DNA from: Candidatus Saccharimonadota bacterium
Lineage (GTDB): Bacteria; Patescibacteriota; Saccharimonadia; Saccharimonadales; Saccharimonadaceae
Assembly: GCA_017536895.1 (NCBI GenBank)
Contig: JAFWCN010000011.1
Coordinates: 1 to 33,017 of the forward strand
Direction: 5' to 3'
DNA length: 33,017 bases
Below, piece by piece: positions 2,202 through 6,318 of this stretch; positions within the stretch are counted from its first letter, which is position 1; each line of letters opens with the position of its first letter. Under the pieces are notes generated by a model, which searched no databases, was not told the origin of the DNA, and saw only the letters and a list, made by a program, of their open reading frames with translations. The position numbers and the translations under genes were made by a program.

Positions 2202-4298
2202 TTACTTCGAGTTCCTCTGCTCAATAATCTCTTGCGCTACATTCGGTGGTACTTCCTCGTAAGCGAAGAGCTCCATCGAAGAAGCAGCCCGGCCTTGAGT
2301 CATACCACGAAGATCACCGGTATAGCCAAACAGGTTAGCCAAAGGACAAAATGCCTTGATGAGCTTTGCCCCACCGTTCAAATCTTCCATTTCATCGATA
2401 CGACCACGGCGAGAGTTAATGTCGCCAATTACGTCGCCCATGAATTCTTCAGGGGTAGTAATCTCAAGCTTCATTACTGGCTCCAAGAGAACTGGGTTAG
2501 CTTTCTTGATACCTTCACGGGTAGCCAAGGAACCAGCCAAGGTAAAGGCGAGCTCCGAAGAGTCAACATCGTGATAAGAACCATCATAAAGGGTTGCTTT
2601 AATGTCAACTACTGGGTAGCCAGCAATCACACCACCAGCCAAAGTATCTTCGACACCCTTCTGCACCGGCTTGCGATATTCCTGAGGCACCACACCACCT
2701 TTAATTTGGTCAATAAATTCAAAGCCCTTCCCTGGTTCATTTGGCTCAAACTTAATCCAAACATCACCATACTGACCACGACCACCAGACTGCTTGATGT
2801 GCTTACCTTGGGCTTCAGCAGTGCCACGAATAGTTTCACGGTAAGCTACCTGAGGCGCACCAGTGTTGGCTTCTACATTATGTTCCCTCTTCAAACGGTC
2901 AATAATAATCTCAAGGTGAAGCTCACCCATACCCGAGATGATGGTCTGACCAGTTTCCTCATCAGTGTGGACGCGGAAAGTTGGGTCTTCCTCAGCCATC
3001 TTGGAGAGGCCAATGCCCATTTTCTCTTGGTCAGCCTTAGTCTTCGGTTCTACCGCAATTGATACTGGTGGATCTGGGAATTCAATCGATTCTAGCAAAA
3101 TCGGCGAAGAAGGAGCACAAAGTGTCGTACCAGTGGTACAATTCTTGAGTCCTACCACCGCGGCGATATCGCCTGCACCGATTTCGGTAATATCTTTACG
3201 GTCATTAGCATGCATTCGGACCAAACGACCGATCCTTTCTTTATCGCCAGTTGAAGCATTCAAAACAGTATCACCTGACTTCAATTTACCAGCATACACG
3301 CGAATAAAGATTAGTTTACCCACAAATGGGTCAGTTGCAATCTTAAAGGCAAGCGCAGTAAGTGGCTCTGAGTTATCAGCTTTACGCACGATTTGATCGC
3401 CAGTCTTTGGATCGGTACCAATAGTTTGACCCTGATCACGGTCAAGTGGTGAAGGCAAATAATCAGTCATAAGATCGAGCACCTTCTCCACAATTACACC
3501 ACGACCATCGCCGCCAGTCACTAGGAAGAAATCCCCGTCAAGTACGCGTTTACGTAGAGCCGCTTTAAGCTCAGCTTCAGTAATTGCATCCTCACCTTCG
3601 TTGAAGAATTTCTCCATCAGTTTTTCGTCGGCTTGGACAGCTTCCTCAATCAACATCGAACGAGCATTTTTGGCTTTGTCTACCATGTCAGCCGGGATTT
3701 CGCCTACCGTAAGCTCATGGTCAGCATAATCTTTGTAGGTATAAGCCTTCATGTCAATGAGGTCAACTACACCGCAAATATCTTTTTCGAAACCAATAGG
3801 TAGATGAATCGCTACTGCATTCTTAGAAAGACGTTTGTGAATCGAATCGAGTGACTTATAGAAATCACCACCAATCTGATTAATCTTGTTTACAAAACAA
3901 ATGCGTGGTACGCCGTACTTAGTAGCTTGGCGCCATACGGTTTCAGACTGCGCTTCTACACCCATCTTGCCGTCAAACACCACTACGGCACCATCGAGGA
4001 CGCGAAGAGAACGCTCCACCTCAGCGGTAAAGTCAATGTGTCCCGGGGTATCGATGATATTAATTTGATGGTTTTTCCAATAAACAGTTACAGCAGCAGA
4101 AGTAATCGTGATACCACGCTCCTTTTCCTGCTCCATCCAGTCAGTATCAGCACCACCGGTGCCACCTTTCACTAGATCAATTTTGTGCTTCAGGCCAGTA
4201 CGATACAAAATCGCCTCTGAAGTCGTAGTTTTGCCAGCGTCAATATGAGCAATAATCCCGATATTTCGCAGCTTGCTTAAATCTTTTATGTCAGCCAT
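2202..4298 (-). CDS. fusA: Elongation factor G with unusual guanine-recognition motifs
   Basis: The 698-residue product has full EF-G length and domain order: GTPase, EF-Tu-like domain II, then domains III-V. G1 is AHIDAGKTT (17-25) and G3 is DTPGH (83-87). The switch region has KERGITITSAA. Domain IV/V signatures such as GMGELHLEIIIDRLKRE and PQEYRKPV are present. EF-G drives ribosomal translocation and, with RRF, recycling. G4, normally NKMD, reads NKIN (137-140), and the usual GSAFKNKG around G5 reads TGGDGRG (261-267). Both changes bear on guanine recognition. The start is fixed by AAAGGAG 4 nt upstream of the ATG. It is transcribed alone from an extended -10 promoter; rpsL, rpsG and tuf are not adjacent. 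Confidence 0.97.
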   Translation of the reverse strand: MADIKDLSKLRNIGIIAHIDAGKTTTSEAILYRTGLKHKIDLVKGGTGGADTDWMEQEKERGITITSAAVTVYWKNHQINIIDTPGHIDFTAEVERSLRVLDGAVVVFDGKMGVEAQSETVWRQATKYGVPRICFVNKINQIGGDFYKSLDSIHKRLSKNAVAIHLPIGFEKDICGVVDLIDMKAYTYKDYADHELTVGEIPADMVDKAKNARSMLIEEAVQADEKLMEKFFNEGEDAITEAELKAALRKRVLDGDFFLVTGGDGRGVIVEKVLDLMTDYLPSPLDRDQGQTIGTDPKTGDQIVRKADNSEPLTALAFKIATDPFVGKLIFIRVYAGKLKSGDTVLNASTGDKERIGRLVRMHANDRKDITEIGAGDIAAVVGLKNCTTGTTLCAPSSPILLESIEFPDPPVSIAVEPKTKADQEKMGIGLSKMAEEDPTFRVHTDEETGQTIISGMGELHLEIIIDRLKREHNVEANTGAPQVAYRETIRGTAEAQGKHIKQSGGRGQYGDVWIKFEPNEPGKGFEFIDQIKGGVVPQEYRKPVQKGVEDTLAGGVIAGYPVVDIKATLYDGSYHDVDSSELAFTLAGSLATREGIKKANPVLLEPVMKLEITTPEEFMGDVIGDINSRRGRIDEMEDLNGGAKLIKAFCPLANLFGYTGDLRGMTQGRAASSMELFAYEEVPPNVAQEIIEQRNSK

Positions 4299-4387: not shown

Positions 4388-4422
4388 AAATTTGAAATGG
4401 AATTCATTTCCATTTCAAATTT
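4388..4422. repeat. 15-bp perfect inverted repeat upstream of the fusA promoter
   Basis: AAATTTGAAATGGAA (4388-4402) and its exact complement (4408-4422) flank a 5-nt loop. It covers the expected -35 region of the fusA promoter and has no T tract on either strand, so it looks more like an operator or cruciform than a terminator. Confidence 0.7.
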
Positions 4423-4441
4423 AAAACTGGCTTTCTTTTGT

Positions 4442-4471
4442 TGGGGTTTTCTTTCCCGAAAGAAAACCCCA
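4442..4471. repeat. 14-bp perfect inverted repeat with 2-nt loop
   Basis: TGGGGTTTTCTTTC (4442-4455) pairs exactly with GAAAGAAAACCCCA (4458-4471). There is no T tract on either side. It stands between the terminator of the candidate RNA and the fusA promoter. Confidence 0.7.
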
Positions 4472-4475
4472 GACT

Positions 4476-4508
4476 AAAAAAATGGCCGGTGCAAATGAGC
4501 AACCGGCC
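4476..4508 (-). terminator. Rho-independent terminator of the candidate RNA
   Basis: On the minus strand GGCCGGT and ACCGGCC (4508-4502 / 4490-4484) form a 7-bp GC stem with an 11-nt loop, followed by ATTTTTTT (4483-4476). It is nearly 300 nt beyond the gatB stop, further than expected for a gatB terminator. Confidence 0.85.
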
Positions 4509-4761
4509 TGTATAGATAGAAGTACGACAAGCTAGAGGATTTTGAATATTTATGAACAGTTATTGTTCAAATAAGGTGTATGTATGAGAATTTTATTAAA
4601 TCATAGTTATACTTATTGCTTTTTGGACCCGTCGGCCCAAATTAACGTTATTTCTCTTTTCTTGTGTACCTCTTTCTATTCTAAGGAGCTTGTCCGCAAG
4701 CGCAAGGACAGAGCACTTGCGGACAACTTAAACCAACAATCACAAGGCAAAAGTGATTGTA
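4476..4761 (-). ncRNA. Candidate structured non-coding RNA, about 285 nt, class unknown
   Basis: This otherwise gene-free stretch has a near-consensus minus-strand promoter (4768-4796) and a strong terminator (4476-4508), with no plausible coding frame between. In transcript order the predicted stems are: ACAATCAC with GTGATTGT; TTGTCCGCAAG with CTTGCGGACAA (11 bp); TTTGGGCC with GGTCCAAA around a GACG loop; GAACA with TGTTC; and the terminator. GACAAGCT after the second stem can also pair with AGCTTGTC near the 3' end. I see none of the hallmark sequences of tmRNA, RNase P RNA or SRP RNA. It could be a free small RNA or a regulatory leader ending before fusA. No homology was tested. Confidence 0.55.
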
Positions 4762-4767
4762 CGTCAC

Positions 4768-4796
4768 ATTGTATCATGTAAAAGCTATTTTGTCAA
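4768..4796 (-). promoter_or_regulatory. Near-consensus sigma-70 promoter of the candidate RNA
   Basis: A perfect TTGACA (4796-4791) and TACAAT (4773-4768) are separated by 17 bp on the minus strand. It is the best -35/-10 pair in the window and lies immediately after the gatB stop. The first ORF of any size downstream is fusA. Confidence 0.82.
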
Positions 4797-4803
4797 CTTA
4801 ATT

Positions 4804-6318
4804 CTAAGATAATTTCTTGCGTAAAATATCTTGTACGGCCGAAGGATTCGCTTTGCCCTTAGACTCTTTCATTACCTGTCCCACTAAGAAACCAATTACT
4901 TTTTCCTCGCCAGCCTTGAAGTCGGCTTGCGCTTTCTGAGTTTCTGGCTTGGCGAGTACCGCATCGACAATTTTCTCAAGCGCGCCTAAATCATTTTCCT
5001 GAATTAAACCTAACTCCTTTGCAATCTGTTTTGCTCCACGACCTTTCATCTGAGGATCAAATAGCTTTAGGAACACTTCCTTGGTCGCAGTCGAGGATAA
5101 TTCTTTCTTGATATTCATTTCGGCTAGTTCATCAAGCTCTTTTGCCGTCGGCAAATCATTCAGATACTCCGCTGACTTCTCTTCCGCAAGCAACACTGAA
5201 GCGAATAGATTAGAAATCAAAAGCACTAGAGAAGATGCTTTAGAGGGGCTTCCGGAGGTTACGACCGAGGATGAGGGCGCGAGCCCCGTGACGACGGGCG
5301 CGAGCGACCCGTCCCCGAGAAAGCCATCTTCTCTGGTGCTTAGTTCACGAAGGCTGTTCATTAGTTGCGGGTAATCGAGCAAGACCTCCAGTATATCTGA
5401 TTTAATAACACCGTCAAACAACTTTCGATAATCCGCCGGCATCAACGGCAACTTCGCCGATTCCTCATCAATAAACTCTGATGAAAGGTTAATTGGCGGA
5501 ATATCTGGTTCCGGCATATAACGATAGTCCTTCGCTTCCTCCTTAGATCTCTGCCCAGTCGTTACTCCAGTAGCATCATTCCATCCTCTAGTTTCCTGGA
5601 CAACTTTTTCGCCTTTTTCAAGGAGCTTAGTCTGCCTCTTAATTTCATATTCAGCTGCTCTTTCGGCTGACCTAAATGAATTCAAGTTCTTCACCTCCGC
5701 TCGTGTGCCTAGCTCCGATGACCCTTCCGGCGCCACCGACACATTCACATCAAACCGCATATTCCCATTATAAAGATCCCCGTAAGTCACTCCCGCATAG
5801 CACATCAGTCTCCACAACTCTTTACAATAATCGTGTACATCCTTGCTAGAATGAATATCTGGCATTGACACGATTTCGATCAAAGGTGTATCGACACGAT
5901 TCAAATCCACGAGCGAATAAGTGTCAAAATGTGTCAGTTTCCCTGCATCACCCTCAAGATGCGCATGCTCAATCCGCACTTTCGTACCCGACGGAAGCTC
6001 CACATATCCTGCTCCAATAATCGGATGATAAAACTGCGAAATCTGATAGCCCTTCGGCGAATCTGGGTAAAAATAGTGTTTGCGGTCAAATCTCGAATAT
6101 GGATTAATCTCGCAATTCATTGCGCGGCCCGCTCGAATTGCAAATTTGATTGCCTCACCATTTAGGCGCGGCAACATTCCTGGCATCGCATAATCCACCG
6201 GCGATACGCAAGAGTTCGGCTCTTTGCCACGCGCATCGTTATCTACTTCAGAAAACAATTTAGTTTTTGTACATAACTGTACGTGACACTCAATACCAAT
6301 CGTTGGAATATATTTCAT
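4804..6318 (-). CDS. gatB: Aspartyl/glutamyl-tRNA amidotransferase subunit B with an inserted palindromic element
   Basis: GatB binds misacylated Glu-tRNA(Gln) or Asp-tRNA(Asn), phosphorylates the side chain and uses ammonia from GatA to make the amide. The 504-residue product starts with GIECHVQLCTKTKLFSE and has YFYPDSPKGYQISQ, the HLEGDAGKL region, and DFNRVDTPLIEIV-like (here DLNRVDTPLIEIV) motifs. The YqeY-like C-terminal tail ends GKANPSAVQDILRKK. Residues about 326-366 are a Ser/Gly/Val-rich segment of low complexity encoded by a GC-rich palindrome (5221-5341), placed between the helical and tail domains where the family has no such stretch. It overlaps the stop of the preceding gene by 4 bp (ATGA), with GGAG just upstream, and is last in the gat operon. 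Confidence 0.96.
   Translation of the reverse strand: MKYIPTIGIECHVQLCTKTKLFSEVDNDARGKEPNSCVSPVDYAMPGMLPRLNGEAIKFAIRAGRAMNCEINPYSRFDRKHYFYPDSPKGYQISQFYHPIIGAGYVELPSGTKVRIEHAHLEGDAGKLTHFDTYSLVDLNRVDTPLIEIVSMPDIHSSKDVHDYCKELWRLMCYAGVTYGDLYNGNMRFDVNVSVAPEGSSELGTRAEVKNLNSFRSAERAAEYEIKRQTKLLEKGEKVVQETRGWNDATGVTTGQRSKEEAKDYRYMPEPDIPPINLSSEFIDEESAKLPLMPADYRKLFDGVIKSDILEVLLDYPQLMNSLRELSTREDGFLGDGSLAPVVTGLAPSSSVVTSGSPSKASSLVLLISNLFASVLLAEEKSAEYLNDLPTAKELDELAEMNIKKELSSTATKEVFLKLFDPQMKGRGAKQIAKELGLIQENDLGALEKIVDAVLAKPETQKAQADFKAGEEKVIGFLVGQVMKESKGKANPSAVQDILRKKLS
5221..5341. repeat. In-frame palindromic element inside gatB
   Basis: Outer arms AAGCACTAGAGAAGATG (from 5221) and CATCTTCTCTGGTGCTT (to 5341) are near-perfect inverted complements. 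The centre is GC-rich, with the hairpin CCCGT-GACG-ACGGG at 5285-5298 and two copies of GGGCGCGAG. Bases 5243-5266 are identical in reverse complement to uvrB 19038-19061. It adds about 40 codons without a stop. The same core occurs in gatA and uvrB. Confidence 0.85.

Follow-up and report, generated by a model that had tools for sequence, protein, structure and literature searches.

A predicted lineage-specific structured RNA encoded upstream of fusA in Saccharibacteria

The spacer between gatB and fusA in a Saccharibacteria genome of 0.84 Mb (G000) appears to encode a lineage-specific, free-standing structured regulatory RNA, a prediction with a probability of about 0.85. The window analysed, 33,017 bp in length, is one entire contig of this genome; the spacer measures 506 bp and the RNA feature sits inside it on the minus strand, with a predicted transcript start at ~4761 and the end of its terminator at 4476 (Table 1). 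The evidence supports a new orphan structured RNA, restricted to one lineage, whose predicted shape, unlike its sequence, is conserved across seven related species. A brief search of open-access papers turned up no structured regulatory RNA reported from Saccharibacteria. In other respects this is an ordinary discovery, one more orphan structured RNA, yet a compensated structured RNA fixed beside fusA, the gene for a ribosome motor protein, in a reduced genome may open the way to RNA-based regulation in Saccharibacteria. That it is recognisable in one small lineage only would suggest a capacity for fast turnover in RNAs of this sort.

Table 1. Positions of the predicted RNA gene, its parts and its neighbours in the window
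Feature	Position	Strand	Basis
gatB	4804-6318	minus	
Promoter TTGACA-17-TACAAT, TG before the -10 (TTGACA 4796-4791, 17 bp, TACAAT 4773-4768)	4768..4796	minus	same place in all seven homologs
Non-coding RNA gene (predicted), ~285 nt	4476..4761	minus	fold z -8.7, homologs and covariation
Hairpin I (HI), 8 bp, ACAAUCAC/GUGAUUGU	4736..4760	minus	two two-sided changes between G000 and G109
Hairpin II (HII), 14 bp, UUGUCCGCAAGUGC/GCGCUUGCGGACAA	4690..4726	minus	two two-sided changes between G000 and G109
Linker GCUCCUUA, anti-Shine-Dalgarno-like, between HII and P1	4682..4689	minus	identical letters in 6/7 homologs
P1, 5' strand (5+8+5 bp)	4661..4679	minus	fold and covariation
UAACGUUA, fixed joining segment, palindrome	4643..4650	minus	comparison of copies
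P3 hairpin, invariant GACG loop, covarying stem	4622..4641	minus	GGGCC/GGUCC, GAACC/GGUUC, CGAAC/GUUCG
UAUUCA, fixed joining segment	4543..4548	minus	comparison of copies
P1, 3' strand	4512..4531	minus	fold and covariation
Intrinsic terminator, loop CUCAUUUG	4476..4508	minus	stem covaries, loop CAUUUG kept
fusA	2202-4298	minus	

Transcription signals

The original prediction regarded the promoter of the RNA as the best in the window. It is indeed strong, matching the consensus at 11 of 12 positions, but two other sites in the window score the same and it is outscored by a 12/12 site at 29203-29175 on the minus strand. Consensus promoters are found in the first half of the window at close to the chance rate (32 against 30.6 expected), and the relevance of the RNA promoter comes from its recurrence at the same position in all seven homologs rather than from consensus alone. 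The higher-scoring site is a sigma-70 match of the form TTGACA-17-TATAAT with TG before the -10, which apparently lies within a coding region, towards its 3' end. The strong terminator thought to close a unit of ~285 nt was confirmed, with an intrinsic terminator, GGCCGGUUGCUCAUUUGCACCGGCC-AUUUUUUU, having its 3' end at 4476 and a stem that covaries across copies.

Predicted fold and its conservation

The transcript of 287 nt folds at -96.6 kcal/mol compared with -56.1 +/- 4.7 for dinucleotide shuffles (z of -8.7). All five homologs tested fall far below their shuffles, with z values of -8.7, -8.1, -4.8, -6.2 and -6.2, and the same five with the terminator removed still give values from -3.7 to -7.3. 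The stable stems that had been predicted are present, although the long one is of 14 bp and not 11 bp. The 18 bp of P1, with interruptions, close a branched core of ~130 nt which contains AACGUUA, the P3 hairpin, UAUUCA and a possible but weak helix, P4, and all seven copies give the same overall architecture as their unconstrained minimum-energy fold.

Conservation of these helices is seen in the closest pair, G000 and G109, whose alignment is unambiguous and whose comparison is free of the bias of hand-set registers; over 55 pairs there are four two-sided and three one-sided changes that keep pairing, with one pair lost. Across the seven copies compensatory helix changes are found throughout, with two-sided changes at 12/13 positions of HII, 8/9 of HI, 5/8 of inner P1, 3/5 of P3 and 7/9 of the terminator, totals which are biased towards structure because the registers were set by hand from the folds. 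On the same registers 82 of 85 helix cells are paired in HII, and HI, P1, P3 and the terminator are paired wherever listed. In other copies HI has a wholly different sequence with its pairing intact, whilst in both P3 and the terminator the stem varies and the loop (GACG and CAUUUG respectively) remains constant. Comparison of the seven genomes thus shows that compensated changes keep a predicted scaffold, in which two hairpins on the 5' side are followed by a branched core that holds the GACG-loop P3 and is closed by P1, and then by the hairpin of the terminator. It also shows the putative RNA gene to be structured, non-coding and under selection for its fold. The proposal of a new structured RNA, for which stems conserved in near relatives and covariation in the gatB-fusA region were to be sought, is supported by six homologs with compensated helices, including the four two-sided changes in the closest pair.

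A few short unpaired blocks are fixed across copies, namely GCUCCUUA, AACGUUA and UAUUCA, together with two loops, GACG in P3 and CAUUUG in the terminator. The joining segment UAACGUUA reads GAACGUUA in G162 and is absent in G202, which carries GGUUCUUUA in place of GCUCCUUA and has lost AACGUUA and the GACG hairpin; its scaffold is retained. For a pseudoknot in which the GACG loop would pair with AACGUU there is no supporting covariation.

The claim that there is no coding frame also holds, as no open reading frame is kept among the homologs. A frame of 31 codons in G003 is disrupted in G171 by small deletions, as is expected for a non-coding RNA. A small peptide starting from the AUG after CUCCUUA in G003 was likewise rejected, being broken in G171 and missing elsewhere.

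Homologs and their distribution

Six further copies were found, every one directly upstream of fusA and within the same saccharibacterial genus. Of the source records, three are named as Candidatus Saccharibacteria (yak rumen, goat duodenum and goat jejunum), and their architecture is near-identical. Across 60 relatives, blastn with the RNA as query returned a single match, of 27 nt in G010, where the surroundings are unrelated. The copy in G003 was spotted by eye in the same gap, with its parts in the same order and little sequence identity. The pattern AACGTTAN{3,25}CCGACGGG led to G109, and a three-block pattern run over 84,980 species genomes returned the yak-rumen copy G189 together with G003 and G109. 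Pattern matches in a Clostridia MAG, Perlabentimonas, Lacticaseibacillus and one viral contig lie in unrelated contexts and are chance.

A covariance model built from the two closest copies (R1) was too specific and missed G003. A second model (R2) used four sequences and covers the core only, without P1, HI and HII, its alignment having been trimmed because MAFFT misaligned P1. Applied first to 393 relatives and afterwards to 174 members of the genus, R2 found the copy in G171, with all weaker matches in unrelated contexts; those in G299, G004, G178, G100, G016, G166 and G165 are without the promoter, HII-GCUCCUUA or the terminator. A survey of the regions upstream of fusA in 80 further genus members, chosen as the nearest by fusA plus a few more distant so as to reach below the sensitivity of the models, yielded a sixth full copy in G162 (R2 score of 22.8 bits, E 0.025) and the scaffold-only copy of G202 with its changed core. 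Each genome has one recognisable copy, and a search of phages and plasmids gave no match.

A tree built from 85 fusA genes places the RNA in two clades, (G202,(G109,G000)) and ((G162,G189),(G003,G171)), with no RNA-free members inside either and no copy recognised outside them; two label changes are needed to explain this, and none of 500 label shuffles was as low. With the deeper branches of the tree not resolved, the RNA may have had a single origin. In G189 the sequence upstream of the RNA is unrelated to gatB and in G162 there is no gatB in the fetched stretch, with the RNA still beside fusA in both.

Comparison with known RNAs and alternative explanations

A search against Rfam 15 found nothing over the gathering cut-off in the window or in fourteen related loci, and the weak matches vary between copies, with only terminator-like sRNA models shared. 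The absence of a tmRNA, RNase P or SRP signature that had been noted agrees with these models, which give no match at the RNA locus; the window has no tRNA or tmRNA, and RNase P (class A model) sits elsewhere in all six genomes tested. The RNA resembles the orphan structured non-coding RNAs that come from comparative genomics (for example PMC2864571, PMC8632094), which are likewise intergenic, with compensated helices, fixed loops, no coding frame and no known function, but it is narrow in distribution, being recognised in seven genomes of one genus and absent from Rfam 15.

Of the housekeeping RNAs, a diverged 6S RNA binding RNA polymerase had been suggested, and the size class, own promoter and long closing helix would fit, as would the lack of any 6S RNA over the cut-off in genus members scanned with RF00013. 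That model, however, has no match in G000 at E<=1 and none in the window at gathering, and in place of a rod with a central bubble the predicted folds have a P1-closed branched core and two separate 5' hairpins; the RNA is moreover recognised in few genomes only, unlike 6S, and the suggestion is highly improbable. It is hardly credible that this is the missing signal recognition particle RNA, despite a length close to that of the large bacterial form. The SRP models RF00169 and RF01854 have no match in six genus genomes with or without the RNA, in a scan where controls were detected, so the SRP RNA of the genus is either very diverged or missing, but the relatives G018, G010 and G026, in which the RNA was not found, are equally without a detectable one, which indicates that the RNA does not fill this gap. 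The signatures of the SRP domain, a GGAA-type tetraloop and AGCAGC, are missing from its sequence. A non-functional origin, as a chance hairpin-rich spacer or the remnant of a palindromic repeat, gains something from two more palindromes downstream (4388-4422 and 4440-4468), from the dispersed repeats of G000 and from the variability of the gap upstream of fusA across the genus; set against five helices with compensated changes, fixed loops, a promoter and terminator kept at both ends and one recognisable copy per genome, it is very unlikely.

A closer competitor has the RNA acting in cis on fusA, as a leader or an attenuator, through conditional read-through of the terminator or through GCUCCUU sequestering the fusA AAGGAGC on one transcript. 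The RNA immediately precedes fusA in 7/7 genomes, including G189 and G162 where gatB was not found upstream, GCUCCUU is able to pair with the fusA Shine-Dalgarno, and some copies permit a partner exchange of hairpin II. In this exchange GACAAGCU (HII 3' strand) is complementary to AGCUUGUC (P1 3' strand), as the original prediction of an alternative fold had it, but the pairing is not conserved over the seven copies; by duplex energy against shuffles it is unusual in G189 and G202, weaker in G000/G109, and absent in G003, G171 and G162. A conserved switch is thus rejected because it is missing in three copies and its site differs in G202. Each copy also has its own terminator, GCUCCUU and its Shine-Dalgarno partner are ~380 nt apart, and in the genus members seen, whether or not they carry the RNA, a promoter-like extended -10 (TATGATATAAT, TGTGATATAAT-like) belongs to fusA itself, with the fusA leader kept across the genus in either case. 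A leader that ends before fusA, as was also proposed, is rather unlikely.

Possible function

The best explanation overall, at roughly even odds, is a structured RNA with its own promoter and terminator which acts in trans and whose fixed unpaired blocks are putative contacts. An RNA of ~285 nt would be transcribed from the sigma-70-type promoter, ended by its terminator and, if expressed, would act as a regulatory RNA through these contact sites. In the likeliest single step, GCUCCUUA, between HII and P1, could pair with a Shine-Dalgarno (AAGGAGC, as before fusA) and such pairing would lower translation initiation of target mRNAs. GCUCCUUA is, however, a doubtful candidate for an anti-Shine-Dalgarno seed. 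It is unchanged in 6/7 copies, but the evidence for a seed is weak because it fits any Shine-Dalgarno, is only partly unpaired in some predicted ensembles and is changed in G202, and because an exact pattern for the 16S rRNA 3' end had no match in any of the seven genomes. All seven genomes have AAAGGAGCAUAUG at fusA, but the match of GCUCCUUA to fusA is not specific, as AAGGAGC is found in 64/85 fusA genes, most of them in genomes without the RNA.

The AbcR and RoxS/RsaE types are sRNAs with C-rich anti-Shine-Dalgarno motifs. LhrC of Listeria is another, a trans-acting sRNA (PMC4132741), and the RNA described here is like the LhrC type in having its own promoter and terminator and a fixed CUCC segment complementary to ribosome-binding sites. 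It is about twice as long or more, and its motif lies between two helices and not in a hairpin loop. CUCCUUA after a stable hairpin also resembles helix 45 of 16S rRNA with its anti-Shine-Dalgarno tail, and a new RNA class that imitates the 16S rRNA 3' end, with a global effect on ribosomes or initiation in a reduced-genome bacterium, might be imagined. This is most improbable.

Other elements near fusA and gatB

Judged from the genomes compared, the gap upstream of fusA is a variable site across the genus, with different sequence in other members, often a promoter, an open reading frame or another terminator. Different promoter-to-terminator units, some apparently non-coding and hairpin-rich, lie there in L014, L145 (G018), L121 (G083) and L122 (G164), and the site may collect such units. 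The two palindromes downstream of the RNA, perfect or near-perfect, are between its terminator and the fusA promoter and recur in G109 and G171; in G171 the second has an altered stem with its GAATTCC centre kept.

Dispersed palindromic elements inside genes are known from Rickettsia. Within gatB an in-frame insert (5221-5341, ~residues 328-364), missing from the gatB of most relatives, looks like an element of this kind, as it is flanked by 17-nt inverted repeats, AAGCACTAGAGAAGATG/CATCTTCTCTGGTGCTT, and peptide stretches like it occur in about a dozen other places in G000.
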